Below, one piece after another: positions 11,143 through 42,100 of a stretch of DNA of 61,807 bases. The notes under the pieces are model-generated. The model saw nothing but the letters and a program-made list of their open reading frames with translations. It was not told the origin of the DNA and did not search any database. Source of the DNA: Candidatus Omnitrophota bacterium. GTDB lineage: Bacteria; Omnitrophota; Gorgyraeia; Gorgyraeales; Gorgyraeaceae. Made by a program: the position numbers and the translations under genes. The stretch is from positions 1 to 61,807 of the forward strand of contig JAHJQM010000013.1 in assembly GCA_018819285.1 (NCBI GenBank). Direction: 5' to 3'. The stretch's first letter is position 1; the number at the start of each line of letters is the position of its first letter.

Positions 11143-12354
11143 TTATAAATAAACTACATCTTCTTTATGATATAGCGATAGAAACAACAGCATGTATTCT
11201 CTAATGTGACGCGTGATTAAAAAATTATTCCTTATATGCTCTCTGCCATTTTGACCTAATTTTTCAGCGTATTCCGGATTAGTCAGAAACTGCTTGATAG
11301 CAAAACTAGCGCCGTCTATGGAATGGCACAATAAGCCGGAATATTTATGTTTTATTTGCAGCGGAATCCCTCCCACATTAGAAGCTACAACCGGTTTTGC
11401 CTTCCACAGCGCTTCAGCAACAGTTAAGCCAAATCCCTCTTTTAAAGATTTTTGCACAATCACATCCGAAGCTCGCTGCAAGGCATTAACTACTATATCA
11501 TCCTGGGGCAGCAATAAAATATGCATATCTTTATCATGTCCTGATCTCGTTTTGACTTCTTCTAAAACCTGCGCGCTTTCAGGGTCATCAGCTGCGCTGC
11601 CTCCTGCTAAGATAAGTTGGCAATCAATGTATTTCTTTACTTGTTTATACGCCTCAATAACCCCCACAGGGTCTTTTAAACGGTCAAAACGGGAGATCTG
11701 GGTAATGATCGGTTTATCCTTTTTAATGTTATATTTTCTCAATACCGAATCTATTGTTTCCTGAGGCAATTCTCTATTTTTATCGCTTAAAGGATCTATA
11801 GAAGGAGATATCAAAAACTGTCTTATAGGCAGTCTTTGTGAAAAACTGGGCGCAGAAAATACTGCACTATCATAACTGGTTATAAAATTCTTCAAAAATT
11901 TCCATACTTGCTGGTTAGGATTAGATACGTCAATATGACAACGCCAGATCCATTTATTGCTGGCTTTCTTTTTTATCAAAGCTATAGGCTGAGGGTCATG
12001 CACAAATATGATATCTCCGTGAATATCCAATGCATCTATATTTTTCTGGCTAGTTTCCAGGAATATATCAAAATCTCGCTGCGTTATTTCTTCCGATCTT
12101 CCATGCAAAGCATTATGAAATTTTTTCGTTACTTCAAAAAAATGCTCTCCGCCCCTTATAGCATCCCATCTGGTATCTACCTCTAACTCTCTCAATAAAG
12201 GAACCATGCGGCTAAGTATCTCAGCAACTCCGCCGCCTACCACTGTTGAATTAATATGCTGAATAACTTTGCCTTTAAGTTTTTCAGCCAATAGTTTTAG
12301 ATCATCTATGATAGGCTGCCCTACTATTGGTATATATTCTTCTATATTGGTCAT
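11143..12354 (-). CDS. treT: Trehalose synthase, TreT-type GT4 glycosyltransferase
   Basis: A 403-residue GT4 enzyme whose N-terminus (INSTVVGGGVAEILSRMVPLL, then WDAIRGGEHFFEVTKKFHNAL) is characteristic of TreT, which joins NDP-glucose and glucose into trehalose. The C-terminal Rossmann half has ITQISRFDRLKDP and the donor-site run EGFGLTVAEALWKAKPVVAS. It overlaps the preceding DUF5752 gene by one base (TAATG), indicating coupling. Together with OtsA and OtsB this gives two trehalose routes in one operon. The reverse (trehalose breakdown) direction is also possible for TreT. Confidence 0.9.
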   Translation of the reverse strand: MTNIEEYIPIVGQPIIDDLKLLAEKLKGKVIQHINSTVVGGGVAEILSRMVPLLRELEVDTRWDAIRGGEHFFEVTKKFHNALHGRSEEITQRDFDIFLETSQKNIDALDIHGDIIFVHDPQPIALIKKKASNKWIWRCHIDVSNPNQQVWKFLKNFITSYDSAVFSAPSFSQRLPIRQFLISPSIDPLSDKNRELPQETIDSVLRKYNIKKDKPIITQISRFDRLKDPVGVIEAYKQVKKYIDCQLILAGGSAADDPESAQVLEEVKTRSGHDKDMHILLLPQDDIVVNALQRASDVIVQKSLKEGFGLTVAEALWKAKPVVASNVGGIPLQIKHKYSGLLCHSIDGASFAIKQFLTNPEYAEKLGQNGREHIRNNFLITRHIREYMLLFLSLYHKEDVVYL

Positions 12355-13028
12355 TATTGATCTCGCAATTTCTGCTCTACTATCTTAATGATTGTTTTTC
12401 TTAGATCTTCCAAGGTATGAGTATAAGGGTCAAGCCTTGAAATTTTATCTGATGATTCTTTGTCGCCGATAGACGTTTCTATCCAATTCGAAAAATCATT
12501 TGTCTTCTTTTCCAATCTTAACCGAGATTCAAAGATATGAAAATATATGGAGTCTATGGTTATGTTTTTAACTATATCTACAAATTCTCTTAAATTATAG
12601 GCAATATAATTTGTAGGCAATATAAAACTTATTGACTTTATAAAATGAAATTCCTCTCCTTCTCCGGCAAACTTCAATTTAACTGACATATTATTTTTCA
12701 AATAATCTTCAATAGTCGCTATAATTTTATCTCTCAGCTTACGAACCGTAGAAAACTGAACCGTATCAATACTAGCCAATCTTTCTCCCAGCTCATCCTC
12801 TCCCAGCACCTTACTCACCCAATAGGCAAAATCATTAGGCGGCTCAGGAGATAAATACTGGTGTTGCTGCAAAAATCTATGTGTATGATGGTAAACACAT
12901 GACCCTGACACCTGTTTTACTGTGCTCAATAACTGGCTTAAATTTGATGCCCTAAGGCCAGTCAATTCTGATAGATGTAGCCTTGTATAGAACCTAAACG
13001 GCTCTATTACTTTGATTAATCCTGACAT
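12354..13028 (-). CDS. DUF5752 family protein
   Basis: A 224-residue protein with two similar halves, each with a PNDFAYWVSKVLG- or TNDFSNWIETSIG-like acid/aromatic motif followed by a LASIDTVQFSTVRKLR- or RLDPYTHTLEDLR-like segment. This resembles DUF5752, which I associate with trehalose-metabolism neighbourhoods; its function is not known. The start overlaps otsB by 13 bp and its stop overlaps treT by one base, so it is translated as part of the trehalose operon and may be an accessory or regulatory subunit (inference). Confidence 0.7.
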   Translation of the reverse strand: MSGLIKVIEPFRFYTRLHLSELTGLRASNLSQLLSTVKQVSGSCVYHHTHRFLQQHQYLSPEPPNDFAYWVSKVLGEDELGERLASIDTVQFSTVRKLRDKIIATIEDYLKNNMSVKLKFAGEGEEFHFIKSISFILPTNYIAYNLREFVDIVKNITIDSIYFHIFESRLRLEKKTNDFSNWIETSIGDKESSDKISRLDPYTHTLEDLRKTIIKIVEQKLRDQ

Positions 13029-13831
13029 ATATTCTCGTCTGTTTTAATTTTTAAAATCTGTTCAAGAAACTCTGATACCTCCTGAGTATTTCTCAGATAA
13101 TATTTTGCATGAGAGTTTCCTGGATTGCCTACAAACACGGTCAAGCCTTTATTCTTCAAAGCCCTGAAGGCATCTTCATCAGTTATATCATCTCCGATAT
13201 AGATAGGGACGAACGGCTTTTTACCAAGGACAAATTTTAGCCTGGCGATAAGCCATAATACAATTTTACCTTTATCCCACTCTAAAACCGGCCTTATCTC
13301 TAACACCTTTTTTCCAGGCCTTGTTTTAATTTTATTGCTTACAATATAATAAGCCAGCGCCTCATGAAAGATTGTCTTTACAAGCCATGCGTCCTTTGTG
13401 TTAACAAGCCTGTAATGAACACTTAACGTAAGGCCTTTATCTTCTATAATTACACCTCTAATTTTTGACAGTTTCTTTTTTAAAATGGTTTTGATTTTTT
13501 TGAGTACTATTATATACTTCAGGGAGATCGGGGTCTTAAATTTAACCTTTGGACCATCTATTTCTAGACCATGATTACCTGCATAAATTATTTCTTCTAA
13601 GCCTATTTTTTTCTTTATATCTTTCAAGGCCCTGCCGCTTATAATAGCCACTTTGCAATGTGGAATTTTTGATAAACCTCCAAGGATCTCAATGGTTTTT
13701 CTAGAAATAATAGCTTTATCCGGACTTTGTGCTATTGGCGTCAATGTGCCGTCATAGTCCAAAAAAAGAAAAATAAATTTATTTTTTAATAAGCTTTTTA
13801 GTTTATTCAATTGAAAAAATAAATGATTCAT
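13016..13831 (-). CDS. otsB: Trehalose-6-phosphate phosphatase
   Basis: A 271-residue HAD-superfamily phosphatase releasing trehalose from trehalose-6-phosphate. HAD motif I is LFLDYDGTLTPIAQSPDKA, with the nucleophile Asp at about 25. Motif II is in VAIISGRALKDI, and motif IV in YIGDDITDEDAFRAL. The OtsB-type cap contains YAGNHGLEIDGP and LSVHYR. It lies 19 bp downstream of the sensor-OtsA gene and supplies the second step of the same pathway. Confidence 0.95.
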   Translation of the reverse strand: MNHLFFQLNKLKSLLKNKFIFLFLDYDGTLTPIAQSPDKAIISRKTIEILGGLSKIPHCKVAIISGRALKDIKKKIGLEEIIYAGNHGLEIDGPKVKFKTPISLKYIIVLKKIKTILKKKLSKIRGVIIEDKGLTLSVHYRLVNTKDAWLVKTIFHEALAYYIVSNKIKTRPGKKVLEIRPVLEWDKGKIVLWLIARLKFVLGKKPFVPIYIGDDITDEDAFRALKNKGLTVFVGNPGNSHAKYYLRNTQEVSEFLEQILKIKTDENICQD

Positions 13832-13850: not shown

Positions 13851-16085
13851 TTATACCTTTTTTAAAGACGTAAGTTCTGTGATAAGACTCCCAGCCCATT
13901 TGTAGACATTATTTTCCAGAACAACTTTACGCATATTTTCCATGCGTTTTCTTTTCTCCTCATCCGGCATGTCTACGGTAAATTTTATTGCGTCAGCAAA
14001 TTCCTCTATCGAATAAGGGTTAATTAGCACGGCATCTGTTAATTCCCGGGCCGCTCCTGTAAACTTGCTTAAAATCAAAGCGCCGCTCGAATCCTTTTTT
14101 GAAGCAACATATTCCTTGGCTACCAGATTCATACCATCGTGTAACGAGCTCACTATACAAAAATCGGCCAACGCATAGTAAGGCCTGATTTCTTCAGAAG
14201 AAAAGTAGCGTTTTAAATAAACTATCGGTTTCCAGTCTCCATCCGAATATTTCCAGTTCTTTTTCTCAATTAGTTCGTCTATCTCTCCAATGAGTTCATG
14301 ATAACGCTTTATATGCGTGCGACTAGGCGCTGCTAATTGAAGAAATACTAATTTATTTCTATATTCCGGGTATTTCTCAAAGAACCTGTCAATTGCTAAA
14401 ATACGCTCAATAATCCCCTTGGTATAGTCAATCCTTTCAACCCCAACGCCGATTATCTTATCCTGGAGCTTAAATTCCTTCTTGATCTTATTTATTTCAT
14501 TTTCGTCAAACTGGGTGGAATTACCTGACATATATCCGCCTACACTGATCGGAAATGACCTGATAAATGTTTCCCTGTTCTTCCTTACCACGCTAAATTT
14601 TTCTGTATCCACGCGGCACTCAGTCAACCTGTTAGCAGTATCTAAGAAATTATTACAGTGATTTTGCACGTGAAATCCAATAAGATCACACCCAAACATG
14701 CCATCTAATATCTCCTGATGATAGGGACATATTGCAAAAACTTCTGGATTCGGCCAAGGGATATGCCAGAAAAGCGCTATTGTCGCATCAGGCCGTTTTT
14801 CCTTTATCATTTTAGGAAGCATGGTAAAATGGTAATCCTGGATAAACACAAAAGGATCCTTGGCTGGCAATTCTTCTAGAACATTTTCTGCAAATTTTTG
14901 GTTTACTTTTTTATACATTTGCCAGTCGGTTTCACGAAAGATAGGACGGGTATGAGTAACATGGCAAAGAGGCCACAACCCTTCATTTGAAAATCCATAG
15001 TAATACCCTTCCTCTTCTTCTTTAGTAAGCCAAACCCTTTTTAATATATAACGATTATCTTCTGTAGGAACACCTAGTTTATTTTTGGAATTTACAAAAT
15101 TTCTGTCTGTTTTAGTGCTTCCATGCGCAATCCATGTGCCGCCGCAAGCTCGTAAAATAGGATCTATAGCAGTAACGACCCCGCTTGCAGGTCTGATGCA
15201 TTTCTGGCTTCCAGTTGCTTCATCTATAATATGCATATAAGGTTCTCTGTTAGAAACAACAAAAAACGCATTTTCTCCCAATCTTGCATGTACAAGATCC
15301 TTTAGCTTGGCCTCGGTCCAGGTATCTTCTCTTTGAATACGCGCATTGGCATTATCAGATACTACTTTCCTAGCCACTCTCAGGCCTAAGGCAACTTGTT
15401 CTACCTCAGTAATAAGCTTTCCAAATTCGCCATTTTCCTTAAAAGGGCGCAATTTATCTATTTCGCCTCTCTGAAAATGTGTAAACCACTGCGTAAGCCT
15501 GCGTACAGGAAGGATAAAAATCTGTCTTTGAATCAAAAGAGTTATTATTACGATAAATAACAACAGCACGATAAGCGATGCGCTTATGCGCTTCCAAAGC
15601 TGAGTCAATATAGTAAATACATAAGATGTGTCATAGATAACCTCTATTGCGCCTATCACATCCTCATTATCATCTGTTACAGGTAAAATATAACTATATA
15701 CTGAATATTCCCTGAATTTTTCAAGAGTTCCGCGCGGAGACTTACTGGCTAATATATCGCTGAGATAAGGTTTATCCTTATCCCGCCAATCAGAAATACG
15801 CTCTGTTATCGCCAATATCTTTCCTTCTTTATCATAAATAACACAGCCTTGCGTCCTATCTCTTTTCTGAAAGCTCTCAACCAGGCGATAGGCTGCCTTT
15901 AAATCATTTTCCAAAAAAATGTGCCTTGCTGATAACTCCATGCTCTCATTTACAGCCTTTGCCTTCTTTTTCAGGTCATCTATCAGCCTTTCTTCTTCAA
16001 AACTGGCCTGTATTAATCCAAATCCGGCAAATACAGCAGTAACTAGAAAAAGTATCGGAAGTATAAATAGCAGTATTCTTTTCAT
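13851..16085 (-). CDS. otsA: Membrane sensor (Cache-like, HAMP) fused to trehalose-6-phosphate synthase
   Basis: The ATG at 16085 is preferred over the longer frame (16184): it has AGGAATAACT before it and begins with a proper signal anchor (MKRILLFILPILFLVTAVFA). The 744-residue product has TM1 (about 5-25), an extracytoplasmic sensor region (about 30-165; CVIYDKEGKILAIT, a Cache-like strand), TM2 (about 170-190), a HAMP linker (about 190-245) and a GT20 domain (about 265-740). OtsA landmarks are VVSNREPY, SGVVTAIDP, HDY-type QDYHFTMLPKMI, FWHIPWPNPE, GFHVQNHCNNF, VERIDYTKGI and SSLHDGMNLVAKEY. It joins UDP-glucose and glucose-6-phosphate. A sensor-HAMP-GT20 fusion is unusual and implies external signals steer trehalose synthesis at the membrane. 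The upstream MscS-like gene ends two bases before the start. Confidence 0.9.
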   Translation of the reverse strand: MKRILLFILPILFLVTAVFAGFGLIQASFEEERLIDDLKKKAKAVNESMELSARHIFLENDLKAAYRLVESFQKRDRTQGCVIYDKEGKILAITERISDWRDKDKPYLSDILASKSPRGTLEKFREYSVYSYILPVTDDNEDVIGAIEVIYDTSYVFTILTQLWKRISASLIVLLLFIVIITLLIQRQIFILPVRRLTQWFTHFQRGEIDKLRPFKENGEFGKLITEVEQVALGLRVARKVVSDNANARIQREDTWTEAKLKDLVHARLGENAFFVVSNREPYMHIIDEATGSQKCIRPASGVVTAIDPILRACGGTWIAHGSTKTDRNFVNSKNKLGVPTEDNRYILKRVWLTKEEEEGYYYGFSNEGLWPLCHVTHTRPIFRETDWQMYKKVNQKFAENVLEELPAKDPFVFIQDYHFTMLPKMIKEKRPDATIALFWHIPWPNPEVFAICPYHQEILDGMFGCDLIGFHVQNHCNNFLDTANRLTECRVDTEKFSVVRKNRETFIRSFPISVGGYMSGNSTQFDENEINKIKKEFKLQDKIIGVGVERIDYTKGIIERILAIDRFFEKYPEYRNKLVFLQLAAPSRTHIKRYHELIGEIDELIEKKNWKYSDGDWKPIVYLKRYFSSEEIRPYYALADFCIVSSLHDGMNLVAKEYVASKKDSSGALILSKFTGAARELTDAVLINPYSIEEFADAIKFTVDMPDEEKRKRMENMRKVVLENNVYKWAGSLITELTSLKKV

Positions 16086-16087
16086 AG

Positions 16088-16309
16088 TTATTCCTTTTTT
16101 TTCTGAATCTGTTCGTAATGTATTGTCCTGATAGGATAAGGTATGACAATATCGCCTATCTGAATTTTTGTATACTCTGCCCATTTACTAAGGCGTAAGA
16201 ATACAGTCTTTCTTATAATATATCCCAATATAAATATTATCAATAAAACTGCCAAAGGCATTATCGTGTCTACAAATAAGTTTGTTGAAATTTTAAAAAC
16301 CTGATTCAT
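16088..16309 (-). CDS. Short MscS-like membrane protein (truncated paralogue), 73 aa
   Basis: One TM helix (about 14-34) is followed by FLRLSKWAEYTKIQIGDIVI, which resembles the linker after the first helices of the full MscS gene at 25147-26205 (ILRRLRKWAEKTAATFDDFI). The pore helix TM3 and the beta domain are missing, so it cannot form a normal channel. It has a good ribosome-binding site (GGAGAGTAAAGA) and sits between two coding genes with two-base spacing to otsA, so it looks expressed rather than decaying. It could be a small partner of the sensor-OtsA or a relic. Confidence 0.6.
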   Translation of the reverse strand: MNQVFKISTNLFVDTIMPLAVLLIIFILGYIIRKTVFLRLSKWAEYTKIQIGDIVIPYPIRTIHYEQIQKKKE

Positions 16310-16685: not shown

Positions 16686-18815
16686 TTATTCAACAGCATT
16701 TTCTTGTTCGGAATCCTTTAAGAAAAGCGCTGAGGTATTGACTTTATCTGAAATCTTTCTCATCCATTGAATATCATGTTCCTTAGATATGCCAAAAATA
16801 TTAATATCAGCTAAAGGTGCCTTTAGTATCGCCTTTTCAAAAGAACCTGCAACCACAACAATCTCTGTCTCTCTTGTAAACCTCATTAATTTCTTTAATT
16901 TATAAAGATAGTTTTGCGCTTCCTGTTGTTCATTAGCATCAGCCACTACCTGAATAAGCCGGAGTTTACCTTCCCAGTTCTTTTCCAGCTGAAGCCCTAT
17001 CAAGATCGTCAAATGAATATTAGGGCTCATCTTTCTAATCCAGATATTAACTGCCTGTTTTTGTCCAAATACCGACTTTGGATGAAGCCTGAATACCATG
17101 ATTCCCAGGCCCATTGTCTGGGCCTTTATGATAAGGTCTTTTATCGCATGGTCTTTTTCCTGATCTAATCCGAGTTTAATAAACAATACATTTGGAGGCA
17201 AGCCGGATCCCACAAGGGTTTGCGTTACGATTATTGCGCCATCCAGAAATTCTGCTGAATCAACAGCCAGCGTAGAAACAAAAATGCCCTCTTCTTTCAG
17301 CGAAGCAGACATAAACGCAAGCGCTTCTAAAGCTTTTTTCTTTCCAGCTATCTTGTCGCTGATATTCTTGTCTATTATAGTAAAAAAAACCGCTCTGCCA
17401 TTGGGATAAACAATATCCTTTATAAACTCAGCTACGCCCGGCCAATTGCGCCCCTCTTCTACAGGTATAATAAGATTCGGCTTCCATATTTTCGGATGAT
17501 ACGGAAGCTGCGAAGCTATCTTAGTAGCCTTTTCAGCGATAAATATAAATATTCCTTTGCGTATATCAGGCAGATTATTCCTGATATTTTTTCGTACAAG
17601 CACCACATAAATAATTATGGTCACCACTATTGCGACAAGGCTAAAAAGCTGGTTAATAAGAAACATTGCATACAAACATCCAATCCCACCTATTAAAGAT
17701 ATTACAATAGGGATCTTGAATGTAGGCCTAAAACTTATAATACCGGTAATCTTTTCGATAAAAACAGTTATGTTTAATGTCCCGTATGTAATAAGAAAAA
17801 ACATGGTTAAAATACCTGCTATGGTATTTAAAGTCCCTGCAAGAATGGTAAGTAACGCCAGTAATGCTGTCAGAAGGATTGCAGGCGTTGGCTCGCCCTT
17901 GGAGTTTATATAATCAAATTGCGAAGAAAACGGTATTATTCTTTGTTTACTCAATGCCAGAAGCGTCCTAGGGGAGGCCACGAACATACTCAGCGCAGAA
18001 GAAAGTGTAGCGCCCATAATACCTGCGATAACCAGAATTCTCCAGCGCGCCAAATCAATGATAATAGAGGTATTATTTGCCAAATCTTGAGGCGTAGCAA
18101 CAAAAGCAAACCAAAAACATACCGCAACGTATATGAAGAAGGTTACTGCGATAGCAAGAAGCGTTCCTATAGGAATATTGCGTTCTGGTTTTTTTAATTC
18201 GCCTGACATGCTTACCCCTGCCAGAATACCAGTGACCGCAGGAAAAAATATGGCAAACACTTTCCAGAAATTTATCTGGCCCACCCCGTGCCATATAGAC
18301 ACAGATTGCCCTAAACTGGTTTTTCCTAAAAAGATTGATATAAGCGAAAATACAATGATGCCTAAAATAACGTACTGAAGGCGAAATGCCAATTTTGCGC
18401 TTAAATAAGAAACAACTAAAAGTATAAACCAAGTTAATATGGAGACAAAAATAAAGCTATGCTGGGGAAAAATCAAAACCCAGCATTCTGTAAAACCTGC
18501 AATATAAAACGCTACTGAAATTGCTTGGGAAAGATAAAGGGGAATACCTATCGCACCGCCTATCTCAAGGCCAAGCGACTTAGAAATTATAGAATACGCC
18601 CCTCCGGCACCTATCCTAATATTAGTCGTAATGCTTGCGATAGAAAGCCCTGTGCATAAAGTAATAAGATTACTTATCACTATAATGGCAAGCGCCCCTG
18701 CCAAACCAACCTGGCCAACAACCCACCCCAGGCGTAAATACATCACTACGCCCAGTATGCTTAAAACCGTAGGGGTAAATACTCCTTCAAAAGTCCCAAA
18801 CCTTTTTGTCTCCAT
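16686..18815 (-). CDS. SLC12-type cation-chloride cotransporter (APC superfamily)
   Basis: A 709-residue membrane protein with about 12 TM helices (residues 10-440) and a long cytoplasmic C-terminal domain. The N-terminus (GTFEGVFTPTVLSILGVVMYLRLGWVVGQVG, then GAGGAYSIISKSLG) matches bacterial relatives of the animal Na-K-Cl and K-Cl cotransporters; the first unwound helix carries the ion site. The C-terminal part (about 440-700) resembles the SLC12 regulatory domain. The start lies close behind pyruvate kinase (8 bp). Because trehalose genes follow and an MscS channel is upstream, a role in salt and volume balance is plausible; the transported ions cannot be read from the sequence. Confidence 0.85.
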   Translation of the reverse strand: METKRFGTFEGVFTPTVLSILGVVMYLRLGWVVGQVGLAGALAIIVISNLITLCTGLSIASITTNIRIGAGGAYSIISKSLGLEIGGAIGIPLYLSQAISVAFYIAGFTECWVLIFPQHSFIFVSILTWFILLVVSYLSAKLAFRLQYVILGIIVFSLISIFLGKTSLGQSVSIWHGVGQINFWKVFAIFFPAVTGILAGVSMSGELKKPERNIPIGTLLAIAVTFFIYVAVCFWFAFVATPQDLANNTSIIIDLARWRILVIAGIMGATLSSALSMFVASPRTLLALSKQRIIPFSSQFDYINSKGEPTPAILLTALLALLTILAGTLNTIAGILTMFFLITYGTLNITVFIEKITGIISFRPTFKIPIVISLIGGIGCLYAMFLINQLFSLVAIVVTIIIYVVLVRKNIRNNLPDIRKGIFIFIAEKATKIASQLPYHPKIWKPNLIIPVEEGRNWPGVAEFIKDIVYPNGRAVFFTIIDKNISDKIAGKKKALEALAFMSASLKEEGIFVSTLAVDSAEFLDGAIIVTQTLVGSGLPPNVLFIKLGLDQEKDHAIKDLIIKAQTMGLGIMVFRLHPKSVFGQKQAVNIWIRKMSPNIHLTILIGLQLEKNWEGKLRLIQVVADANEQQEAQNYLYKLKKLMRFTRETEIVVVAGSFEKAILKAPLADINIFGISKEHDIQWMRKISDKVNTSALFLKDSEQENAVE

Positions 18816-18823
18816 GATTTTTA

Positions 18824-19849
18824 TTATGCCATATTTAAGATGCTTTTCTCTGTAAATTTAATTATTTTATTCATTATATCCACACAATCTACAGGATACA
18901 GCCCGACAGCGGTTTCCGCGGAAAGCATCACGTAATCCGACCCGTCCAGTATAGCGTTAGCCACGTCTGAAACCTCCGCCCTTGTTGGTATATGATTCTC
19001 TGTCATGCTTTCCAGCATTTGCGTAGCGGTAATGACAAATTTTCCTGATCGGTTGCATTTTTTTATTATTTCCTTTTGAATTACAGGCACTTCATATATA
19101 GGTATAGATATGCCCATGTCGCCTCTTGCAATCATAATCCCATCGCAAACATTAATTATATCATCGATATTTTTTATGCCCTGCCTATTTTCAATCTTCG
19201 CAATAACTTTTAATTCGTAAGGACAATCTTTAAGACGCTCTCTCAAGATAAGGATGTCTTCTTCACTTCTTACAAAAGACTGGGCAATATAATCAATCTT
19301 ATTTTTTATGCAGAAATCTATCCCCAGTTTATCTTTTGGCGTTAATCCTTTAAAGTTCAGCCGGACGTCCGGCATATTAATGCCTTTGTATTCCTTAATT
19401 AATCCTGGGATAACTACCTTGGTCTTCAGGCGTTTTTTCTCGCGGGCTTCTACTATTAAAGCGATATTACCATCATCAATATAAATGTGCTGGCCGATTT
19501 TAATCTGATCTAAAAAGCCTTTATAATCAAAAGGGATAATATCCATCTCTCCAACAATATCCTCCTGGCTTAACCAGATTATTTGTTTTTTCTTAACTTC
19601 GATTGGCTTGCCTCCCCTAAGCCTGCCTATCCTCATGCGATAGCCTTCCAAGTCTCCTAATATCTTGATATGCCTACGATATTTTTTATTCAGCTCTCTT
19701 ATAAGTTTTATCAGTTTCAAATGTTTATCAAAGCTTCCGTGGGAAAAATTTAACCTTGCCACATCCATTCCCGCATACATCATCTTTAGCAGAACATTTG
19801 CTTTGCCTGATGCAGGGCCTAAAGTGCAGATTATCCTAGTCTTTGGCAT
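18824..19849 (-). CDS. Pyruvate kinase-like protein lacking the C-terminal domain
   Basis: At 341 residues it is about 130 shorter than usual pyruvate kinase. The TIM barrel and B domain are present: [25 protein letters not shown], the catalytic-lysine run [11 protein letters not shown], the divalent-metal and substrate run [13 protein letters not shown], and [16 protein letters not shown]. The DTKGPEIR motif is altered to [10 protein letters not shown]. The C-terminal allosteric domain is absent, so ADP/PEP chemistry may remain but effector control should not. It overlaps the lipoprotein gene by 14 bp. It may be a specialised or non-glycolytic paralogue. Confidence 0.85.
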
Positions 19850-20282
19850 TTACAACCTCGTCTTTAGCTGTAACAGCATCTTCCTGCGAAGCAGGAATAA
19901 ATTCCCAAGAGCATAGATTCTGCTTCTTATCAAACTTGAGATATACCATATCAGTGGAAAAATACTGAAGTGGGTGCCGATAAAGACATATTTCTCTAAC
20001 ATCAGCTTCATTTGCAATATCCTTACAAAAAACAGGTTCTCCGTATATGGATAAAATATCTTTTTTAGATATCCCTATCTTTAGTTGATTATTTTTAATA
20101 GCATCCCTTAACTTAAAAAAGGTATCTTTTTGTTTCTTTACATAATCGTCAATTTCATGCTGACTGTCTCCAAGCCTTTTTAATAGCATTAATTGATCGT
20201 AGTGCGTCGTAAAAGAACATCCTCCCAAGGAAAAGATAATACACCAAACCAAGAATATAATTTTTAAGAATCCTGTATCCAT
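19836..20282 (-). CDS. Small lipoprotein with an SmpA/OmlA-like segment
   Basis: A 148-residue protein with a signal peptide ending in a lipobox (FSLGGC, lipidated Cys at about 22). The middle contains [19 protein letters not shown], resembling the BamE/SmpA/OmlA fold's G-M-S-K-xx-V-xx-x-G-x-P signature, followed by a short beta-rich stretch. It is probably in an outer or inner membrane leaflet facing the periplasm. Gene neighbours do not reveal a role. Confidence 0.65.
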
Positions 20283-20312
20283 AAATTAACTATTCCGTAA
20301 TCAATTATATCT

Positions 20313-20615
20313 TTATTTCAATCTTATCGCTAGATCCAAGATAGTGTTGACAAAAAAAGACCTTAAGAACATAATCGCTAAAAAGGCGATTATCGGAGAT
20401 ATGTCGATTCCAAACCCTAAGGCAGGAGGCAACATCTTTCTTATAGGATATAATATGGGCTCAGTAGTCTTGTATAAAAACTGCACTATTGGATTGTACG
20501 GGTCAGGATTAACCCAGCTGATTAGGGCTCGAATCAATATTAGCCAATAAGCTATGGTAAGAAGTACATTCAAGATATTGGCCACTGCAATTAATAAATT
20601 TGAAAATATAAACAT
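20313..20615 (-). CDS. YggT family integral membrane protein
   Basis: A 100-residue protein with two hydrophobic helical pairs (about 5-25 and 65-95) separated by the family-typical RALISWVNPDPYNPIVQFLYKTTEPILYPIRKMLPP. YggT proteins are implicated in osmotic or potassium tolerance and in membrane organisation, without a firm biochemical role. Start supported by AAAGGATATGAG. Its presence here fits the osmotic theme of the region. Confidence 0.92.
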   Translation of the reverse strand: MFIFSNLLIAVANILNVLLTIAYWLILIRALISWVNPDPYNPIVQFLYKTTEPILYPIRKMLPPALGFGIDISPIIAFLAIMFLRSFFVNTILDLAIRLK

Positions 20616-20652
20616 CTCATATCCTTTATGATTGTAGATACTCGAAATCTGC

Positions 20653-21777
20653 TTATGAGGGAGAAATTTGCATTCTCTGATCTTGAGTGAAATGTCTATT
20701 TTTCAATGAAGTACGCGCTCCTCCCACAAGTTCAGCAAAAAGCTCTTTTACCGAAACGATCTTCTTAATACGGTGGGCATTACTGCCACTCATAGCAAAT
20801 CCTTTATCCATCTCTCCGCGGGCGGCGTTACACAGCGCCTTTGCAATGCAATAATTAACTTTTTTAGAATCACAGGTAGCCAGACACTTATACTCACAGC
20901 CGAAATCAATACGTTCGCCCCTGACTATCCTTTTGACAAATTCATTACTGATAACTCTTCCTGGCATACCCACTGGGCTTTGGATAATCACAATGTCTTC
21001 TTTTGTAGCCGATAAATACGCCTCCTTATAACTATCAGCCACATCGCATTCATGAGTACACACAAATCTTGTAGCCATCTGTACCGCGCTAGCCCCTAAA
21101 CTGACAACTCTGGCGATATCTTCTCCGTTAAAAATGCCTCCGGCGGCAATTACTGGAATCTTACAAACCGGACTTTCAAAACCTTTAACGACCAATAATA
21201 CTTCCTTTAAGATATTATCAAGAAACACGCGCTTACCGTCTTTAAGCTCCTCCATTTTATAGCCTAAGTGCCCGCCAGCTAAAGGTCCTTCAACTATTAT
21301 GGCATCAGGCAGGCGTTTATATCTTTTTTTCCAAACATTGCAAATCAACTGGGCCGCCCGGGAAGACGAAACAATCGGCACAAGCTTGGTTCTACTATTA
21401 TTAATAAGCGAAGGTAATTTGAGTGGAAGCCCGGCTCCTGAAATAACCACGTCTACTGACTCCTGCTGCGCAACATCCACTAAGTCTTCATAATTGGTGA
21501 GCGCGCACATAATATTTACCCCAAAAGGTTTGTCAGTCATTGCGCGAGTCTTCCTGATGGTGTTTACAAGGGATCTGCGCGAACGCGCAACGTAGTCGCC
21601 GGCTGTTAAATCTCCTTCTTCGCCAAGCCCCACGGAAGCTATAACGCCCAATCCTCCCTCATTGGATACTGCTGAGGCTAGACCTGACGTTGAAACCCGC
21701 ACGCCCATACCACCTTGAATAATGGGAATTTCAATCCGCACGTCCCCAATGTCTAAATTTTTGAATTTAATATTCAT
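20653..21777 (-). CDS. Nitronate monooxygenase / FabK-like FMN protein
   Basis: A 374-residue FMN-binding TIM barrel. IPIIQGGMGVRVSTSGLASAVSNEGGLGVIAS is the typical N-terminus; VEGPLAGGHLG, PVIAAGGIFNGEDIARVVSLGASAVQMATRFV and the SPVGMPGR loop mark the flavin and substrate sites. These enzymes oxidise nitronates or act in fatty-acid reduction (FabK). A cysteine-rich stretch at about 295-320 (CEYKCLATCDSKKVNYCIAKALC) is characteristic of one bacterial subgroup and might bind metal. It overlaps the GT4 gene stop by 11 bp. Confidence 0.88.
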   Translation of the reverse strand: MNIKFKNLDIGDVRIEIPIIQGGMGVRVSTSGLASAVSNEGGLGVIASVGLGEEGDLTAGDYVARSRRSLVNTIRKTRAMTDKPFGVNIMCALTNYEDLVDVAQQESVDVVISGAGLPLKLPSLINNSRTKLVPIVSSSRAAQLICNVWKKRYKRLPDAIIVEGPLAGGHLGYKMEELKDGKRVFLDNILKEVLLVVKGFESPVCKIPVIAAGGIFNGEDIARVVSLGASAVQMATRFVCTHECDVADSYKEAYLSATKEDIVIIQSPVGMPGRVISNEFVKRIVRGERIDFGCEYKCLATCDSKKVNYCIAKALCNAARGEMDKGFAMSGSNAHRIKKIVSVKELFAELVGGARTSLKNRHFTQDQRMQISPS

Positions 21778-24052
21778 TATCGCTTCCTCCCGCTTGGATT
21801 ATAGCAAGTCTTGCCAAAAGGTACGATGTAGTGGACTCAGCCCCCTGATTGAGATTAATATACCCTTCTCCTACGCCATCATAACATCCACCTGTAGTCC
21901 TATCGTAAACCACCTGCTTAAGGCTGTTATCACCTAAAAACCAGTTAAATGCTTCATGCATAAGCTTTTTATAAGAATCCTTTCCGGTTATTGAATGCGC
22001 TGTAGCAAGAGCGTAGACCATCGCCGACACATCCTCCGGTTGTTGATCAAAATAGCGGCGCTCTCCAATCTTATGATGCCAGCCATCCTGGCCTATTGGC
22101 ATATATATCCTGTTGACAAAAGTCTTGCTTATCAGAAAATCCAACGTCTTAATGCCTATATCCAGGTATTCCATATTACCGGTATGCTTGTGCCCTAAAA
22201 TAAGAGCCTCTGGCAAAACAGCGTTCGAGTAAGTTAAATAATTTTCAAACCACTGCCATTCCTCGGAAGATACGCCCCGATAAAGCGATACTAACCTGTC
22301 GCAGTGAGTGACTAACAACTCCTTTAAGTCCTTACCTTCGATGTCCTGTACCTTTTTTAAAAGGAGATTTATCCCTTTTGCGTAAAAAGCGGTTGCCCGC
22401 GGAGATTCAAACATCCTGTATTTTTCTATCCTTTTCTTTAATAAGGAGAGGGCCTTATTTCTTGCGCTGTCCGGCAGGTAATCAGCCGCAGCAACAACCG
22501 CTAGTGCCCAAAGAGCCCGGCCATTAGCATCATCAAGATTATCCTTTTTATTAAGCTCGATATCTATTGACCTGTCGGATCTTACATAATTACAAAATAT
22601 GCTATCTTCGCATAAAACAAACTCGATGAAACGTAAATATACCCCTATGCGCTTGAGCAATTCGCTTTTCTGCTTATCAGGATAAGCAGCCTTAATCGTT
22701 CCTCCCAATTTGCCATAATATAAACACGCAACTATCAGGGCGCGCGCATTATCATCGAGAGTATAACCCGATGAGATATCCGGTAAAGATAACCTGGCGA
22801 ACTGCATAATCCCAAAATCATCTGTTAGGCGAAGAATGTGATTAAGATTAATGCGGGGAATTTTCTTGCGCTCGCTTACTTCGGCAATATCGCTGGAATA
22901 TCTTGAGAATAATTTTGAATACTCTAGAGCGACATTTTCCCATGTCATATTACGGGTCCTAAAATACGCATTCTTTCCAAACTGCTCTCTTAAGGAAGAA
23001 TTTTTAAGGAGCTTCATGATGGCTTCAGTATAAGAATTGGGGTCTTTAAAATTAACTAATGTTCCTGCCTCCAAGGCAATGAGCTCCCTGGCTTGCGCAA
23101 AAGGAGTGGAAATTACCGGTCTTCCAGAACCCAACGCATAAGAGAATGTTCCTGAAACAGCCTGATTCGGATCGAGAGAAGTTGAGATGTAGATATCCGC
23201 GGCCCTTAAAAAATGAAGGAGTTTATCCACGGAAACATACTCATTATAAAAATTCACGTGGGAAGAAAGTTTAAGATCGTGGACCTTCTGGATTAGGAAG
23301 TTACGGTAGTTTTCCCCTTCTTCTTTTAGGACATTCGGATGAGTAACCCCTAGAACTATATATAAAATATCCGGGTAGGTATTAACAACTTTGGGCAGCG
23401 CCTCTATTACATATTCAATCCCCTTCCCTCTGCTTAGCAACCCGAATGTCAAAAGGATTACCTGCTTTGAAAGACCTAAAGTAGTTTTAGGTTTTGCGCT
23501 GGAGGTATAGGGCATAGAATGGATACCGTGAGGAATCATTGAAATTTTTTCTTCGGCTATCCCGTATTCGCGGATAAGGATCTCCCTTGAGGGATTAGTC
23601 ATAGCTACTAGTCCGCTTGCTTTTTCGGCTATCGAATTAACTACTTCTTTAAGCTTGGCCTCAGGAGAAGGTAGGATGCTGTGAAAAGTTACAATCGAAG
23701 GTTTTTTAAGCGCCTCCAGGAAAGAAATAATATATGAGCCATATTTACCTGCGAAGATGCCGAATTCATGTTGAATATTGACGAGTTTTACCTCTTCCAT
23801 TGCGTTGATATTTTTAGCAGTCTTAATGTATTCCTGCTCAGAATACTGGTTTATTTGAAAGATGACTTTCTTTGAATAATGGTAACGCGATATATCGTCA
23901 AGATTAATCGCGGCCACCTTTGATTCGATGGCAGGTTCAAGCAAATCGTCCATCGCAGCTGTAAGGTCTGCGGTAAAAGTAGCTATCCCGCACTCCCTTG
24001 GAGGAAAAGTTGATAAATAAATAATTTTAAGTGCTTTATTCACTGTTGACAA
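21767..24052 (-). CDS. GT4 glycosyltransferase with a C-terminal helical (alpha/alpha) domain
   Basis: A 761-residue two-part protein. Residues 8-390 form a GT-B fold of family GT4 (STFPPRECGIATFTADL, PHGIHS, LLTFGLLSRGKGIEYVIEALP, and the donor loop SGTFSYALGSGRPVIST). Residues 400-755 are an all-helical region with repeated aromatic/acid motifs (YTLDDNARALIVACLYYG, NLDDANGRALWALAVVAA, WHHKIGERRYFDQQPEDVSAMVYAL) like six-hairpin glycosidase folds. It is next to the GH130 gene (6 bp), a pairing seen in several bacteria for mannoside metabolism. Substrate unknown. Confidence 0.88.
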   Translation of the reverse strand: MSTVNKALKIIYLSTFPPRECGIATFTADLTAAMDDLLEPAIESKVAAINLDDISRYHYSKKVIFQINQYSEQEYIKTAKNINAMEEVKLVNIQHEFGIFAGKYGSYIISFLEALKKPSIVTFHSILPSPEAKLKEVVNSIAEKASGLVAMTNPSREILIREYGIAEEKISMIPHGIHSMPYTSSAKPKTTLGLSKQVILLTFGLLSRGKGIEYVIEALPKVVNTYPDILYIVLGVTHPNVLKEEGENYRNFLIQKVHDLKLSSHVNFYNEYVSVDKLLHFLRAADIYISTSLDPNQAVSGTFSYALGSGRPVISTPFAQARELIALEAGTLVNFKDPNSYTEAIMKLLKNSSLREQFGKNAYFRTRNMTWENVALEYSKLFSRYSSDIAEVSERKKIPRINLNHILRLTDDFGIMQFARLSLPDISSGYTLDDNARALIVACLYYGKLGGTIKAAYPDKQKSELLKRIGVYLRFIEFVLCEDSIFCNYVRSDRSIDIELNKKDNLDDANGRALWALAVVAAADYLPDSARNKALSLLKKRIEKYRMFESPRATAFYAKGINLLLKKVQDIEGKDLKELLVTHCDRLVSLYRGVSSEEWQWFENYLTYSNAVLPEALILGHKHTGNMEYLDIGIKTLDFLISKTFVNRIYMPIGQDGWHHKIGERRYFDQQPEDVSAMVYALATAHSITGKDSYKKLMHEAFNWFLGDNSLKQVVYDRTTGGCYDGVGEGYINLNQGAESTTSYLLARLAIIQAGGSDNEY

Positions 24053-24058
24053 AACCTT

Positions 24059-25090
24059 CTATAACTCTTTATTATTTTTGAGTTCTTTCAAAAGCTCGTT
24101 TATATCTACAGATTTAGCCGCTATGAGTTTATCGGCTGCTCCATAATAGATATATAATCTGTTGTCTTTCAGTACGGTGCCTGTGGGAAAAACAACATTG
24201 TCGACGTCCCCGCGCTTTTCCCACTTCTCAGCAGGAGAAAACAAAGGCTGCTTCATGCGTCCTATAACTTTAGTCGGATCGTCGAGGTCTAGCAATGCGG
24301 CTGCCGCATGATAAATTCTGCCTTGAATCGAGTCCTCTATGCCATGATAGATCAAAAGCCACCCCTCTTTAGTCTCAATAGGCGGACATCCCCCACCGAT
24401 ATTCCTGCTTTCAAAATTGTATTTGGATTCAAGCAGAATGTAGCTGCCTAAATTCTTGAGATACTCTCTCCAATAATCATCGGTAAGATCTTTAAAATCA
24501 TCAAAATAAATCACCTGAATCCCCGGAAGGATACGATGAACTAACGCAAATTTATTGTTAATTTTTTTAGGAAAGATAAAGGCATCCTTCTCCCATAACA
24601 GAATGTCAGCGCCTTGCCTATCTTTTATATATGATTCAAAGAGAAAATATTTCTCCTTTACCTTTATCTTTGAGCAACTAAGGAGTTTGCCTGCTTCGGC
24701 ATAAGTAATGCGCGGAGATATTATCCCGTGCTTTACGAAATTGATAAGGTCGGTACTTGTAGCGTAAGCGAAACTGGCGTTTTTACCGTCATAAGCTGTA
24801 TAAAAAATATAATATTCTCCGTTTAAAAAAACAATCCTGGGGTCCTCTACGCCTTTTTTTTCGTAATCATATTCCGGAAAAAGGACGGGCTGATCAAGCC
24901 TCTTTACTACCTTATTATCGACCAACTGACAGTAGCCTATTGAAGAAACCATATCGCCCTGTCTTACGCCCCTGTAAAACATATGAGTTACGCCGTCTAT
25001 CTCTACGCAGGCTGGATTTAAGACTGCTTGATCATCAAATGCATTGTGTGAACTCTCAAGTACTACGCCTTCATTCTTGACTTCGATCAT
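24059..25090 (-). CDS. GH130 family glycoside phosphorylase
   Basis: A 343-residue five-bladed beta-propeller enzyme. Landmarks: NPACVEIDGVTHMFYRG, the GVEDPRIVFLNGEYYIFYTAYDG blade with the catalytic Asp, NIGGGCPPIETKEGWLLIYHG and DVDNVVFPTGTVLKDNRLYIYYGAAD. GH130 enzymes cleave or make beta-mannosides with phosphate. No signal peptide, so it is cytoplasmic. It lies 56 bp after mscS with its own ribosome-binding site (AAAGAGGCC) and is probably co-transcribed with the GT4 gene, which may build the oligosaccharide this enzyme handles. Confidence 0.9.
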   Translation of the reverse strand: MIEVKNEGVVLESSHNAFDDQAVLNPACVEIDGVTHMFYRGVRQGDMVSSIGYCQLVDNKVVKRLDQPVLFPEYDYEKKGVEDPRIVFLNGEYYIFYTAYDGKNASFAYATSTDLINFVKHGIISPRITYAEAGKLLSCSKIKVKEKYFLFESYIKDRQGADILLWEKDAFIFPKKINNKFALVHRILPGIQVIYFDDFKDLTDDYWREYLKNLGSYILLESKYNFESRNIGGGCPPIETKEGWLLIYHGIEDSIQGRIYHAAAALLDLDDPTKVIGRMKQPLFSPAEKWEKRGDVDNVVFPTGTVLKDNRLYIYYGAADKLIAAKSVDINELLKELKNNKEL

Positions 25091-25146
25091 TTGGCCTCTT
25101 TCTTTGTTAATTTTTTATTTTTGACTCTAAGAACCTATGAAATGGT

Positions 25147-26205
25147 TTATGTAGAAGCTTTAGTTATATATAGCGTCTGAGTAGGATAAGCGAATTCTAT
25201 GCCATCTGTTTCAAATCTCTCTTTTATGGCAAAATTGATATCCTGCTGAATATCCATATATTTGTTGTAGTCACTTCCTGTCACATAGTATACGATTTCA
25301 AAAATTAGGGCAAAATCTCCATAGGAAAAAAAATGCGCCCGGTCAAAAACAGTATCTTTAACATTTTTGATAATATCCTTGATTATTCCTGGAATAGCCT
25401 TTGCCTTTTCTGATGTAGTCTGATAAGTAACCCCTAATTTGAATACAACCCTTCTCTGCTCCATTCTTTTATAGTTGCGGACTCTGGAATTCGTAAGATC
25501 TGTATTAGAAAATATCAGCTGTTCTCCGCTAAGGCTTCGTATGCGAGTGGTTTTTATCCCAATATGTTCAATGGTCCCCAGATAATCTCCAGTTATAATA
25601 AAGTCCCCGATCTCAAACGGGCGGTCAAATAATATGGAAAAATAACTGAATACATCTCCCAAAACTGCCTGAGCCGCCAAAGCTACTGCTACGCCTCCGA
25701 TTCCTAAACCAGCGATAACCGCTGATATCTTGAATCCAAGATTATCCAGAAAAAAGACAATCGCCAATCCCCAGATAACTACCTTTACTATTACCAGGAT
25801 CCCGTCTATACTGCGTTTTAAGGCTTCGTTTTTTTCTTTTTTAGACAGATAAACTTCAAATCCATAGCTTATCAAAGCTATGCCAAAACGCACGGCTGCT
25901 AAAGTCAAGATACTTGTAGCTACAATATTGATGATCTTTCTGAGCAAAGGGTCTAAAGTTAATACATTCATGCCCAGATAAAAAACTCCAAAATAAGCTA
26001 ATGGAACTCCTATCTTTTTAATTACCTCTATAATAAAATCATCAAAAGTGGCTGCTGTTTTTTCTGCCCACTTTCTTAAACGTCTGAGAATTATATACTC
26101 TATTATTTTAATACCCAAAAATCCTGCAAATAATATCAAAGCAACTATCAAATAATTTAAAATACTATTCCCAAAAAACATCAAATCTGCAAGTTGTTGT
26201 ATCAT
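25147..26205 (-). CDS. mscS: Small-conductance mechanosensitive channel
   Basis: A 352-residue MscS-family channel with extra N-terminal helices: TMs at about 12-35, 65-85, 90-115 and 130-155. The pore-lining helix is AVIAGLGIGGVAVALAAQAVLGD (about 165-187) with the usual Gly/Ala packing. The beta domain follows (RPFEIGDFIITGDYLGTIEHIGIKTTRIRS, NSRVRNYKR). It releases solutes on hypo-osmotic shock. The gene follows hflC by 80 bp. Its N-terminal region resembles the 73-aa protein at 16088-16309. Confidence 0.95.
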   Translation of the reverse strand: MIQQLADLMFFGNSILNYLIVALILFAGFLGIKIIEYIILRRLRKWAEKTAATFDDFIIEVIKKIGVPLAYFGVFYLGMNVLTLDPLLRKIINIVATSILTLAAVRFGIALISYGFEVYLSKKEKNEALKRSIDGILVIVKVVIWGLAIVFFLDNLGFKISAVIAGLGIGGVAVALAAQAVLGDVFSYFSILFDRPFEIGDFIITGDYLGTIEHIGIKTTRIRSLSGEQLIFSNTDLTNSRVRNYKRMEQRRVVFKLGVTYQTTSEKAKAIPGIIKDIIKNVKDTVFDRAHFFSYGDFALIFEIVYYVTGSDYNKYMDIQQDINFAIKERFETDGIEFAYPTQTLYITKAST

Positions 26206-39101: not shown

Positions 39102-42100
39102 TTAGATGGCAGAACGCAGGACTTGCTGACCATCACCTATAGTCTCAGTAAAACGTTTCTCAGGAACAGAAATTACGTCGCCTTTCTTTACAAAACATAT
39201 GACGCCTTCTCCGTATTCTAACTCTAACCCTGCATCTTTGAATGCATTAGGTCTTTTTACATAACACATATATGCAGCGTCTAATATAAGTCTTTCTGTA
39301 AATGCAGCTAAGGTCAAAGCATAGCCTATAGATATCATCATAGTAGTGTTTTTATCTTTTGCTGTTTCAAAAAATTCACGATCTGTATTGCCTAAATCTA
39401 ATCCTATAGAAGATGGGTGGTTAGATATTACTTTTATTCTATCAAAAGCCAGATATTGGCCTAAAAATTCTTTTTCTTTAATTTTAGGTTCTTCTAATAA
39501 TAGTTTTAGGTCTACTATGTCGTAGTTGTCGTCTAAAGGTGCTGGATTAACTGCGAGAACTACTTTATACCCCAATTTTAAAACCTCTCTGGCTAATACA
39601 AGCATATATACAACCTCTCCGGCATTATTGAGATTAAATAATACAGTCTTGTCCCACCTTTCTGGCTCTGGCGTTTTTAATAAACGATCAACAATATCTT
39701 TTGTTCCATCCATTTTTATATGACCAACATCATTTATCAAATCCAATAGTTTGCCTGTCTTCATCCCGTCTGATATGGGGCTTAAAATAAGATTAAAATT
39801 TTGCTCTATTGGATTTTTTTCGTTTCCGTCATTTTTGTCAAATATACTAATATTAGATAAAGTAGCTACTTTTATTGCCAATTCCAAGCGTTTGGCAGAA
39901 TCAGGCGTCTTATCCAATGTTTCAATTAAATCCCGCGTGAAAAATAATGCCTCTTCGTCTGCTTTTTTCTTCTCTATCTGAAATGGCGATCTTGCATACA
40001 CCCATATAATTTGCCATATCAATACTTGAACTTCGCGCAATGTGAGATTATCAACCATTGAGCTGTCCATTATCATAGTGATGGTATCTAATATTTTACT
40101 CTTTAATTTATCATCAATAACCCTGTCCTCGTTAAATTCTACAAGCAGATTTTGCGCTTTATCAATACTTAATGCTACATGTTGAAGCAATATATCAATC
40201 AAATACCCGTGTTGTTTTCTGATTTCAGCAAAAGTCAGATGATTCTGTTTTTCTTTTCCTGCTAGGATACTGTATCGTGACGATTTTGCATCTTTGCGTT
40301 TCACTCTCACTCCTATTATACCTTTCTCTCCTTTTTCTAACTCAGGATTAATAATAAAACCTGTCGACTCGCTTCCTTCAGGGACAGCTGCGTAAGTATA
40401 CACCTCCTCGTCTAACAATGCTTCTACCCCAGCAATATTAAGGCCTGGATGGAATATGCAATCTGATGCATTCAGCCTTGCTAATTGAACGCCTTCCGAC
40501 ACCTCTGAATCAATAAGACAGGTATATGACCCTATTTTTGCGTTTTTCCTGATTTTTGTAGCTCCATCTAATATTACATTTGATCCAATAACTACGCCGG
40601 AATCTATTTCAACACCTTTATCAATATAAATAGTTGAAGGATCTCCTGTTATCTTAACCCCTTTAGCTTCTAAGCTTTTTCTACGAGATTTATGTATAGA
40701 AAGAGGCTCTAATTCCAATTTTATAATTTCTTCTGGTTGTAAAATAGGCGTCATTGGCATACGACGAAAACGTCTTTGTTTTCCTTGGTCATCAATATCT
40801 ACTGTCCTTCTTGTAACTATTTCTCCGTCCTTAATTTCTGCTGAAATAATTTTAGAATCTGTGATAACGCACTTTTCCCCAATTTCAGCCCCGCTTCTAA
40901 TTATCACATCTCCATCTTCAGCTCTTATATGGCTTTCTGCTCCTATTTTTACCTTTCCTAAATAGATAGGGCCTTTTGAAGCATCTAATATGATATTGTC
41001 TCCATCAAAACATTCCATGAAATCATCCGGCTTCCTAATCTCTTCAACATAGAGATGAATATTTCCTGAATTTTGGATTGTTATTTGCCTACCGCTTGCT
41101 TTTAAAGCGGAAATAAATTCTGGATGATTTATTAAATGTATGGTTTCAATATCAATATCTTCCTTTTCTTCTATAATTTTTTCTTTTTCAGGCGGATTAA
41201 CTAATAATAAAGCTGAATGTTTAGGAACTGTTGTAAAATCTAATACCTTTTCAGGTTCTTTAGATGTTAGGATATGCACAAAAGGCTTAGACCATTTTCC
41301 CTGCCACAAGCTCTCCGCATTTCCCTGGCCTTTAGCTATCACGCATACAGTGTTCTTATTGCTATACTCTTTTAAAAAATCGCTGCCTGGTTCAATATCT
41401 GAAACTGATGTGCCAAATATCTTTGATCCTGATGATATCACTTTAAGCCTTGAGGGGTTATATCTTTTGAAATAGCCCATCTCACGCATTCTAGCAACTA
41501 AGCCGCTTGTATCTTTCTTAGTCATATCATTAATCACATTGACATCTCGGCTGGCAATGACAACATTAAAACCAAGCCCTAATAAATACTCCGCTAACAG
41601 CATATCGAACACCACTTCTCCAGCGTTATCAGTCAATATAATTATCTCTGGACGTTCGTTATCATTGATCTTTTGAGAACTGTTATCTGGGTTTTCTTTC
41701 CATCCTTTTTCTTTCTTTTTTATCTCAAATTCTAAATACGCAGTCGCTACTATCTCAAAAAATTCATTGATATGATTTTTTTGAAAATCTTTTACTATCA
41801 TTTCCCCTATTTTATCAATAAGCCATTTAGATTCATCAAAACCTTGTTCCTGGGCTTCCTTTTGAAAACGCGGATCTCCTAAATCCATAGCATTTACTGC
41901 AGCGCAGATTAAAGAAAGCCTGGACAATGAATTATGCATCGATAATAATACAAGCAAATGCCTCGAAATTTCTGCCTTGAGAAAATTATTTTCATATCTA
42001 TCCAAAACTTCTTTAACTATCGGGATAGTTTTCTTCCCTTTTAAGTAAGCTTTAAAAAGCTCCATGGTATTCAGTCGGATGCCTTCAGCATATAAGCCAA

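Follow-up and report, generated by a model that had tools for sequence, protein, structure and literature searches.

Whether an enzyme of biosynthesis can serve as the direct output of a HAMP-type receptor is the question raised by one gene in the DNA analyzed here, a 61,807-nucleotide contig of a Candidatus Omnitrophota bacterium (JAHJQM010000013.1; the window). The gene lies at 13851..16085 on the minus strand, and its open reading frame (ORF) runs from an ATG at 16085 without internal stops, encoding 744 residues plus the stop codon. In the protein, TM1, a single Cache domain, TM2, a HAMP-type domain and a linker helix precede, in this order, a complete GT20 domain (hereafter the Cache-HAMP-GT20 fusion). 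The HAMP outputs named in the part of PMC3570549 cited here are mainly kinases, cyclases, chemotaxis proteins and phosphatases. The fusion shares with the receptors described there the plan of transmembrane sensor, HAMP and catalytic output, but differs from them in that its output is a solute-making glycosyltransferase. What is known, then, is the Cache-HAMP receptor plan; what is new is GT20 as the output. We consider the protein to be, on balance, a one-component transmembrane receptor-enzyme, in which signal relay would gate trehalose-6-phosphate synthesis.

The sensor part was characterized with AlphaFold2 models of the full-length protein (55 sequences; pLDDT 86.0, pTM 0.65) and of residues 1–262 alone (pLDDT 84.8), all of them monomers. 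In the models, a long helix of residues 2–59 contains TM1 (16011..16073, minus strand; residues ~5–25), which is also a hydrophobic stretch in the sequence, and is followed by a Cache-type alpha/beta domain at residues ~61–152. The next helix, 154–205, carries TM2 (15531..15611, minus; residues ~159–185) and the first HAMP helix, AS1, and a further one, 220–252, consists of the second HAMP helix, AS2, and the linker, after which GT20 begins. The extracytoplasmic single Cache domain is placed at 15612..16001 (minus; residues ~29–158) and the HAMP-type domain, which is the lowest-confidence part of the model (pLDDT ~60–65), at 15363..15530 (minus; residues ~186–241). VIA-align with the whole model listed glycosyltransferases only, and the sensor was therefore folded and searched separately. 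By Foldseek, its best experimental matches are the extracellular domains of Staphylococcus aureus WalK (E ~5e-7), followed by the KinD, DcuS and CitA sensors. VIA-align superposed the Cache on WalK 4ywz_B (Z 14.4, rmsd 2.3, 134 residues aligned) and 256 residues of the sensor module, including the HAMP, on WalK 9a5d_A, itself an integrative model (Z 17.0, rmsd 4.5).

Profile searches point the same way. On the window protein, HAMP (PF00672) scores 12.8 bits, or 14.7 with the N-terminal part alone, below the gathering cut-off of 25, and sCache_3_2 scores 17.2 and 19.8 bits, below 28.4. Across the family, PF00672 matches 20 of the 55 members at E up to 1 (best 4.3e-5), and a profile built from the N-terminal parts of the 55 relatives finds, among PDB sequences, the WalK Cache (5is1; E 7.3e-5) and the solved HAMPs of AF1503 (E 0.0039) and Tsr (E 6.1e-4). 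The NCBIfam WalK model matches 43 of the 55 N-terminal parts (best E 8.8e-14) and the CreC model 33; these scores are far below the whole-protein cut-offs, as expected without a kinase, and speak to kinship of the input part only.

A HAMP is recognized by two helices joined by a variable connector, with a proline in AS1 and a glutamate in AS2. This signature is present: P193 is kept in 85 and E227 in 83 of the 91 aligned rows, and the connector varies in length. Since fold, profile and WalK-model matches agree, we name the N-terminal part a predicted Cache domain plus a HAMP-type domain, neither of which reaches its Pfam cut-off on the window protein alone. No kinase family is found among the protein's Pfam matches. 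The fusion thus resembles only the input half of a WalK (YycG)-type sensor histidine kinase, with the same fold and TM1-Cache-TM2-HAMP order; unlike WalK, it lacks the kinase domains and has GT20 as its output.

The enzyme part occupies 13854..15272 (minus; residues 272–744). Pfam PF00982 matches residues 274–739 (408.7 bits; cut-off 32.5), covering profile positions 3–472 of 473, and the domain superposes on Mycobacterium thermoresistibile OtsA (5jio) with Z 45.5, rmsd 2.3 and 35% identity over 455 residues. Like 5jio and E. coli OtsA, it has the whole GT-B domain and the substrate residues, while the solved OtsA and GT20 structures listed match the GT20 part only. We compared 19 positions that we take, from annotation of E. 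coli OtsA, to form the NDP-glucose and glucose-6-phosphate sites. At 17 of them the fusion is identical to the E. coli enzyme, including R10, Y77, W86, D131, H155, R263, K268, R301, D362 and E370; the differences are G22, which is S301 here, and position 41, where the E. coli letter is G and the site label used is misnumbered. These residues rule out a degenerate enzyme. As judged from sequence, the substrate site is intact and the domain a predicted trehalose-6-phosphate synthase (TPS)-type enzyme. It is the sole GT20 above cut-off in the genome from which the window comes (1.56 Mb, 69 contigs). The transmembrane helices, the extracytoplasmic Cache-like region and the HAMP that the first-pass annotation had placed ahead of a complete GT20 are thus borne out by the models, the profiles and Pfam.

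The same fusion was then found in Omnitrophota, Acidobacteriota, Nitrospirota and Elusimicrobiota genomes. Full-length fused copies, counted by hand among the matches listed and with N-terminal truncations of up to 30 residues tolerated, occur in 73 of 285 Omnitrophota genomes (any match, 168), 14 of 149 Acidobacteriota (56), 19 of 118 Nitrospirota (47) and 15 of 119 Elusimicrobiota (30); by record title, L102 (G285) stands for Acidobacteria, L097 (G286) for Nitrospirae and L126 (G287) for Elusimicrobiales in these sets. Relatives matching over the whole length are 65–76% identical, and Omnitrophota or Omnitrophica stands in many of their titles; further records carry the titles Methylomirabilota, Rokuibacteriota, Deltaproteobacteria, WOR-1, Goldbacteria, Edwardsbacteria and others, although the labels of metagenome bins can be wrong. 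Of 13 genomes examined, 12 have no GT20 above cut-off other than the fused protein, and the thirteenth has a pair, each a long ORF.

A tree of 130 GT20 domains separates 91 fused from 39 sensorless rows by one branch (SH-aLRT 92). For this tree, 11 cut or short rows and L001, a duplicate of the window, were dropped, and 200 rows were reduced to 130 at 80% GT20 identity. The simplest reading is that the fusion arose once, with the root and the long outgroup branches leaving room for other origins. The distribution, together with the single branch carrying every fused row, rules out the sensor as a recent local accident. L173, a Nitrospirota TPS, is an ORF of ~740 residues that begins at GT20 and has a phosphatase-like C-terminal half; it is like the sensor fusion in length and different in architecture. 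ORFs of similar size occur in L174–L178.

The main competitor of the receptor-enzyme reading is that the N-terminal part is a membrane anchor or scaffold that sites trehalose synthesis, with Cache and HAMP as passengers without regulatory effect. The 155 fused rows include 12 genes twice, and spacing was recounted on the 143 distinct genes, the figures being counts of genes, not of events. From D152 in the Cache to P193 in the HAMP, the distance is 41 residues in 142 genes, the remaining one being gapped. From E227 in AS2 to W256, it is 29 residues in 127 genes, 22 in six, 28 in six, 30 in two and 21 in two. W256 and L261 are invariant and lie in the segment formed by the linker helix and the pre-GT20 helix (15273..15362, minus; residues ~242–271). 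The AS1-AS2 connector, meanwhile, ranges from 26 to 44 residues. The 22-residue version is exactly one heptad shorter than 29, and the hydrophobic period is 3.4 residues across 220–255. Linkers of 28, 30 and 21 residues (10 of 143) violate strict heptad phase, and the short linkers (six genes with 22 residues, two with 21) are confined to few lineages, with five of these rows in one clade of the GT20 tree, and may reflect a single event. A locked helix length with an exact one-heptad loss would be needed by a rotating or tilting helix, not by a flexible tether. A passenger is not expected to hold a 41-residue Cache-HAMP spacing, nor to keep the helix between HAMP and enzyme at 29 or 22 residues in 133 of the 143 genes when the connector between AS1 and AS2 varies so widely.

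Nor is a passenger expected to be held by selection at the level seen here. Across 50 close pairs of fused genes, some of which occur twice, median dN/dS falls from the Cache (0.19) through HAMP (0.13) and the linker (0.09) to GT20 (0.07), which indicates, at the sequence level, that the sensor is under purifying selection. Except for the short HAMP connector, the Cache is the fastest-changing part. In Elusimicrobia, L126 and L135 share 95% identity in GT20 and 52% in the Cache, while L135 and L147 share 90% and 85%, and the identity dip of these Caches, or their divergence peak, is at residues 81–140. In AU tests, for groups chosen after the identities had been seen, the Cache data reject an L126+L135 clade (p 0.0007) and the GT20 data reject L135+L147 (p 0.004). 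Histories of the two domains also differ across a larger Elusimicrobia set comprising L126, L135, L140, L147, L148, L171 and L212. Sensor-domain exchange is the likely cause of this conflict, behind which assembly chimeras may also lie; such a conflict is expected if cues change, and exchanged Caches are again not what a passenger would show.

Other facts favor the anchor. The window HAMP is under its Pfam cut-off, an MscS-type gene lies directly upstream in 16 of 127 distinct fused genes (those with at least 1.2 kb available upstream), and sensorless Omnitrophota TPS relatives sit in the same operon slot, which means that the enzyme need not have a sensor. Moreover, the Omnitrophota proteins L217 (G212) and L218 (G059) keep TM-HAMP-GT20 with no recognizable Cache in any frame. 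L215 (G139) has TM1 and the Cache and lacks TM2 and HAMP through an in-frame gap at residues 142–251. Either the Cache is dispensable in some lineages, or these genes are decayed or misassembled; as they stand, the variants mean that the Cache is not indispensable everywhere. Apparent sensor loss in two close relatives, G091 and G235, was ruled out, both being truncated by contig ends. Weighing both sides, the fixed spacing and the unlike Caches on near-identical enzymes favor signal-gated catalysis over a plain anchor, to which we give a minor though real chance.

How might the receptor-enzyme work? The Cache, outside the membrane, would bind or sense an envelope or solute cue. From there, a helical shift would pass through TM2, the HAMP-type domain and the heptad-phased helix into the N-terminal lobe of GT20, where it would arrive beside the mobile N-loop and alpha-1, which close over the substrates. 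In the parts of the two reports cited here, alpha-1 of OtsA is described as mobile (PMC6879718) and the N-loop as changing conformation during catalysis (PMC5685639). Since the linker enters GT20 just ahead of the N-loop/alpha-1 region, movement driven by HAMP could control how this region closes over the substrates, and trehalose-6-phosphate would be made faster or more slowly as a result; we infer dimeric signaling, the sign of control and enzyme activity. The phosphatase encoded next would convert the product to trehalose, so that an outside signal would change trehalose synthesis. As for the cue, osmotic or envelope state is our guess, prompted by trehalose itself, the operon, the MscS-type neighbors and the WalK-like Cache. 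The view of the first-pass annotation that a biosynthetic enzyme seems to be the HAMP output is backed by fold and phylogeny, by conservation and purifying selection, and by the fixed helix spacing. The wider proposal is of a Cache-HAMP receptor whose direct output is compatible-solute synthesis, a protein that perceives the stimulus, relays it across the membrane and makes the metabolic response itself, that arose once and spread over many phyla, and whose Caches are exchanged or fast-diverging between close relatives to re-aim the enzyme at new cues; this we regard as evenly poised.

Known systems approach this arrangement from several sides. M. thermoresistibile OtsA is controlled, in the part of PMC6879718 cited here, by cytoplasmic 2-oxoglutarate and 2-phosphoglycerate, unlike the fusion with its transmembrane sensor plan. 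Arthrobacter OtsA is, like the fusion, a trehalose-6-phosphate synthase tied to stress sensing, and is itself termed an osmotic stress sensor (PMC5685639); there, unlike in the fusion, the enzyme itself is the sensor, and the word 'transmembrane' is absent from the main text of that paper. TPS-TPP fusions are discussed in PMC1769515, whose main text contains neither 'HAMP' nor 'transmembrane', and trehalose synthesis genes have been reported in Omnitrophota (PMC8542988, in the part cited here). No description of a Cache-HAMP-GT20 fusion was found among the titles and abstract beginnings of the matches listed from an open-access library. If the receptor-enzyme reading is true, a metabolic enzyme as HAMP output would skip transcription and second messengers, and the cell may tune a protective sugar directly from an outside cue. 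Osmotic or envelope state could then act on trehalose post-translationally, and HAMP signaling would have a simple enzymatic readout. As sister genes with the sensor and without it occur naturally, the idea can be tested directly.

A different doubt concerns the product. GT20 might make another sugar phosphate, in which case the trehalose reading would be wrong and the receptor-enzyme reading right. The domain scores 422.2 bits with the NCBIfam OtsA equivalog TIGR02400 against a cut-off of 564.85, and is accordingly classed as a TPS-type GT20 rather than an OtsA orthologue. The glucosylglycerol-phosphate synthase model TIGR02398 also matches (321 of 569 bits), and the change of G22 to serine noted above fits the same doubt. 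The retained glucose-6-phosphate and NDP-glucose residues argue against it, as does the adjoining trehalose-6-phosphate phosphatase (TPP) gene (13016..13831, minus; PF02358/TIGR00685), which scores 173.7 bits against an equivalog cut-off of 68.05; of 84 distinct fused loci, 63 have a same-strand phosphatase nearby. We therefore think another product improbable. The operon continues on the minus strand with a conserved partner encoding a DUF5752 protein (12354..13028), between the phosphatase and a TreT-like GT4 gene (11143..12354; PF21269 and PF00534, below the TreT equivalog cut-off). Among loci with at least 2.7 kb downstream, the full set of TPP, DUF5752 and TreT-like genes is present nearby in the same orientation at 35 of 84 distinct fused and 15 of 27 sensorless ones, with DUF5752 near 45 of 84 and 16 of 27 TPS loci, respectively.

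Signaling could also run inside-out, as proposed for LapD-type proteins, with the substrate or product state of the enzyme passing through HAMP and Cache to an envelope partner. Weak LapD_MoxY_N matches in 6 of 55 N-terminal parts (best E 0.006) and a Foldseek match to the LapD orthologue CdgS9 (E 5.5e-4) are in line with this, but WalK-, CitA- and DcuS-type receptors score better, and ten window-derived queries identified no conserved periplasmic partner gene near the loci, so that we rate this direction as slightly less probable still than another product.

Finally, an annotation artefact, be it a frame error, a late start or a chimeric assembly, is very improbable: relatives are mostly metagenome assemblies, and a weak Shine-Dalgarno-like site accompanies an in-frame start somewhere within 240–275 in 46 of 155 family rows, but the full-length frame recurs in many genomes of several phyla, the window gene has no supported internal start, and change across the sensor is synonymous-biased. 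The first two of these had been named at the outset as possible refutations, and both are ruled out for the window gene, the frame error by that recurrence and the late start by the start sites. A Shine-Dalgarno-like AAGGA (16092..16096, minus) lies 6 nt 5' of the ATG at codon 1, and no such site precedes the in-frame GTG237, TTG269 or ATG284. A longer ATG ORF would give 777 residues; the family start is nonetheless the ATG at 16085.

The surroundings of the gene offer some further observations. A 73-residue ORF (16088..16309, minus) ends with its stop 2 nt before the ATG of the fusion. It is what remains of an MscS-family channel gene after a large internal deletion: in alignment with a 355-residue MscS-family protein encoded in the same place in L073, it matches residues 1–56 (62% identity) and the C-terminal tail. 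Where an MscS gene is the upstream neighbor (20 rows, some genes being counted twice), its end overlaps the fusion start by four bases in nine. Near the operon, 16686–26205 (minus) encodes a cation-chloride cotransporter-like permease, a GT4 glycosyltransferase, a GH130 phosphorylase and an MscS channel, genes compatible with an osmotic and carbohydrate theme. Farther away, 39102–52799 (minus) is a single ORF of 4565 residues, strikingly long for a 1.56-Mb genome.
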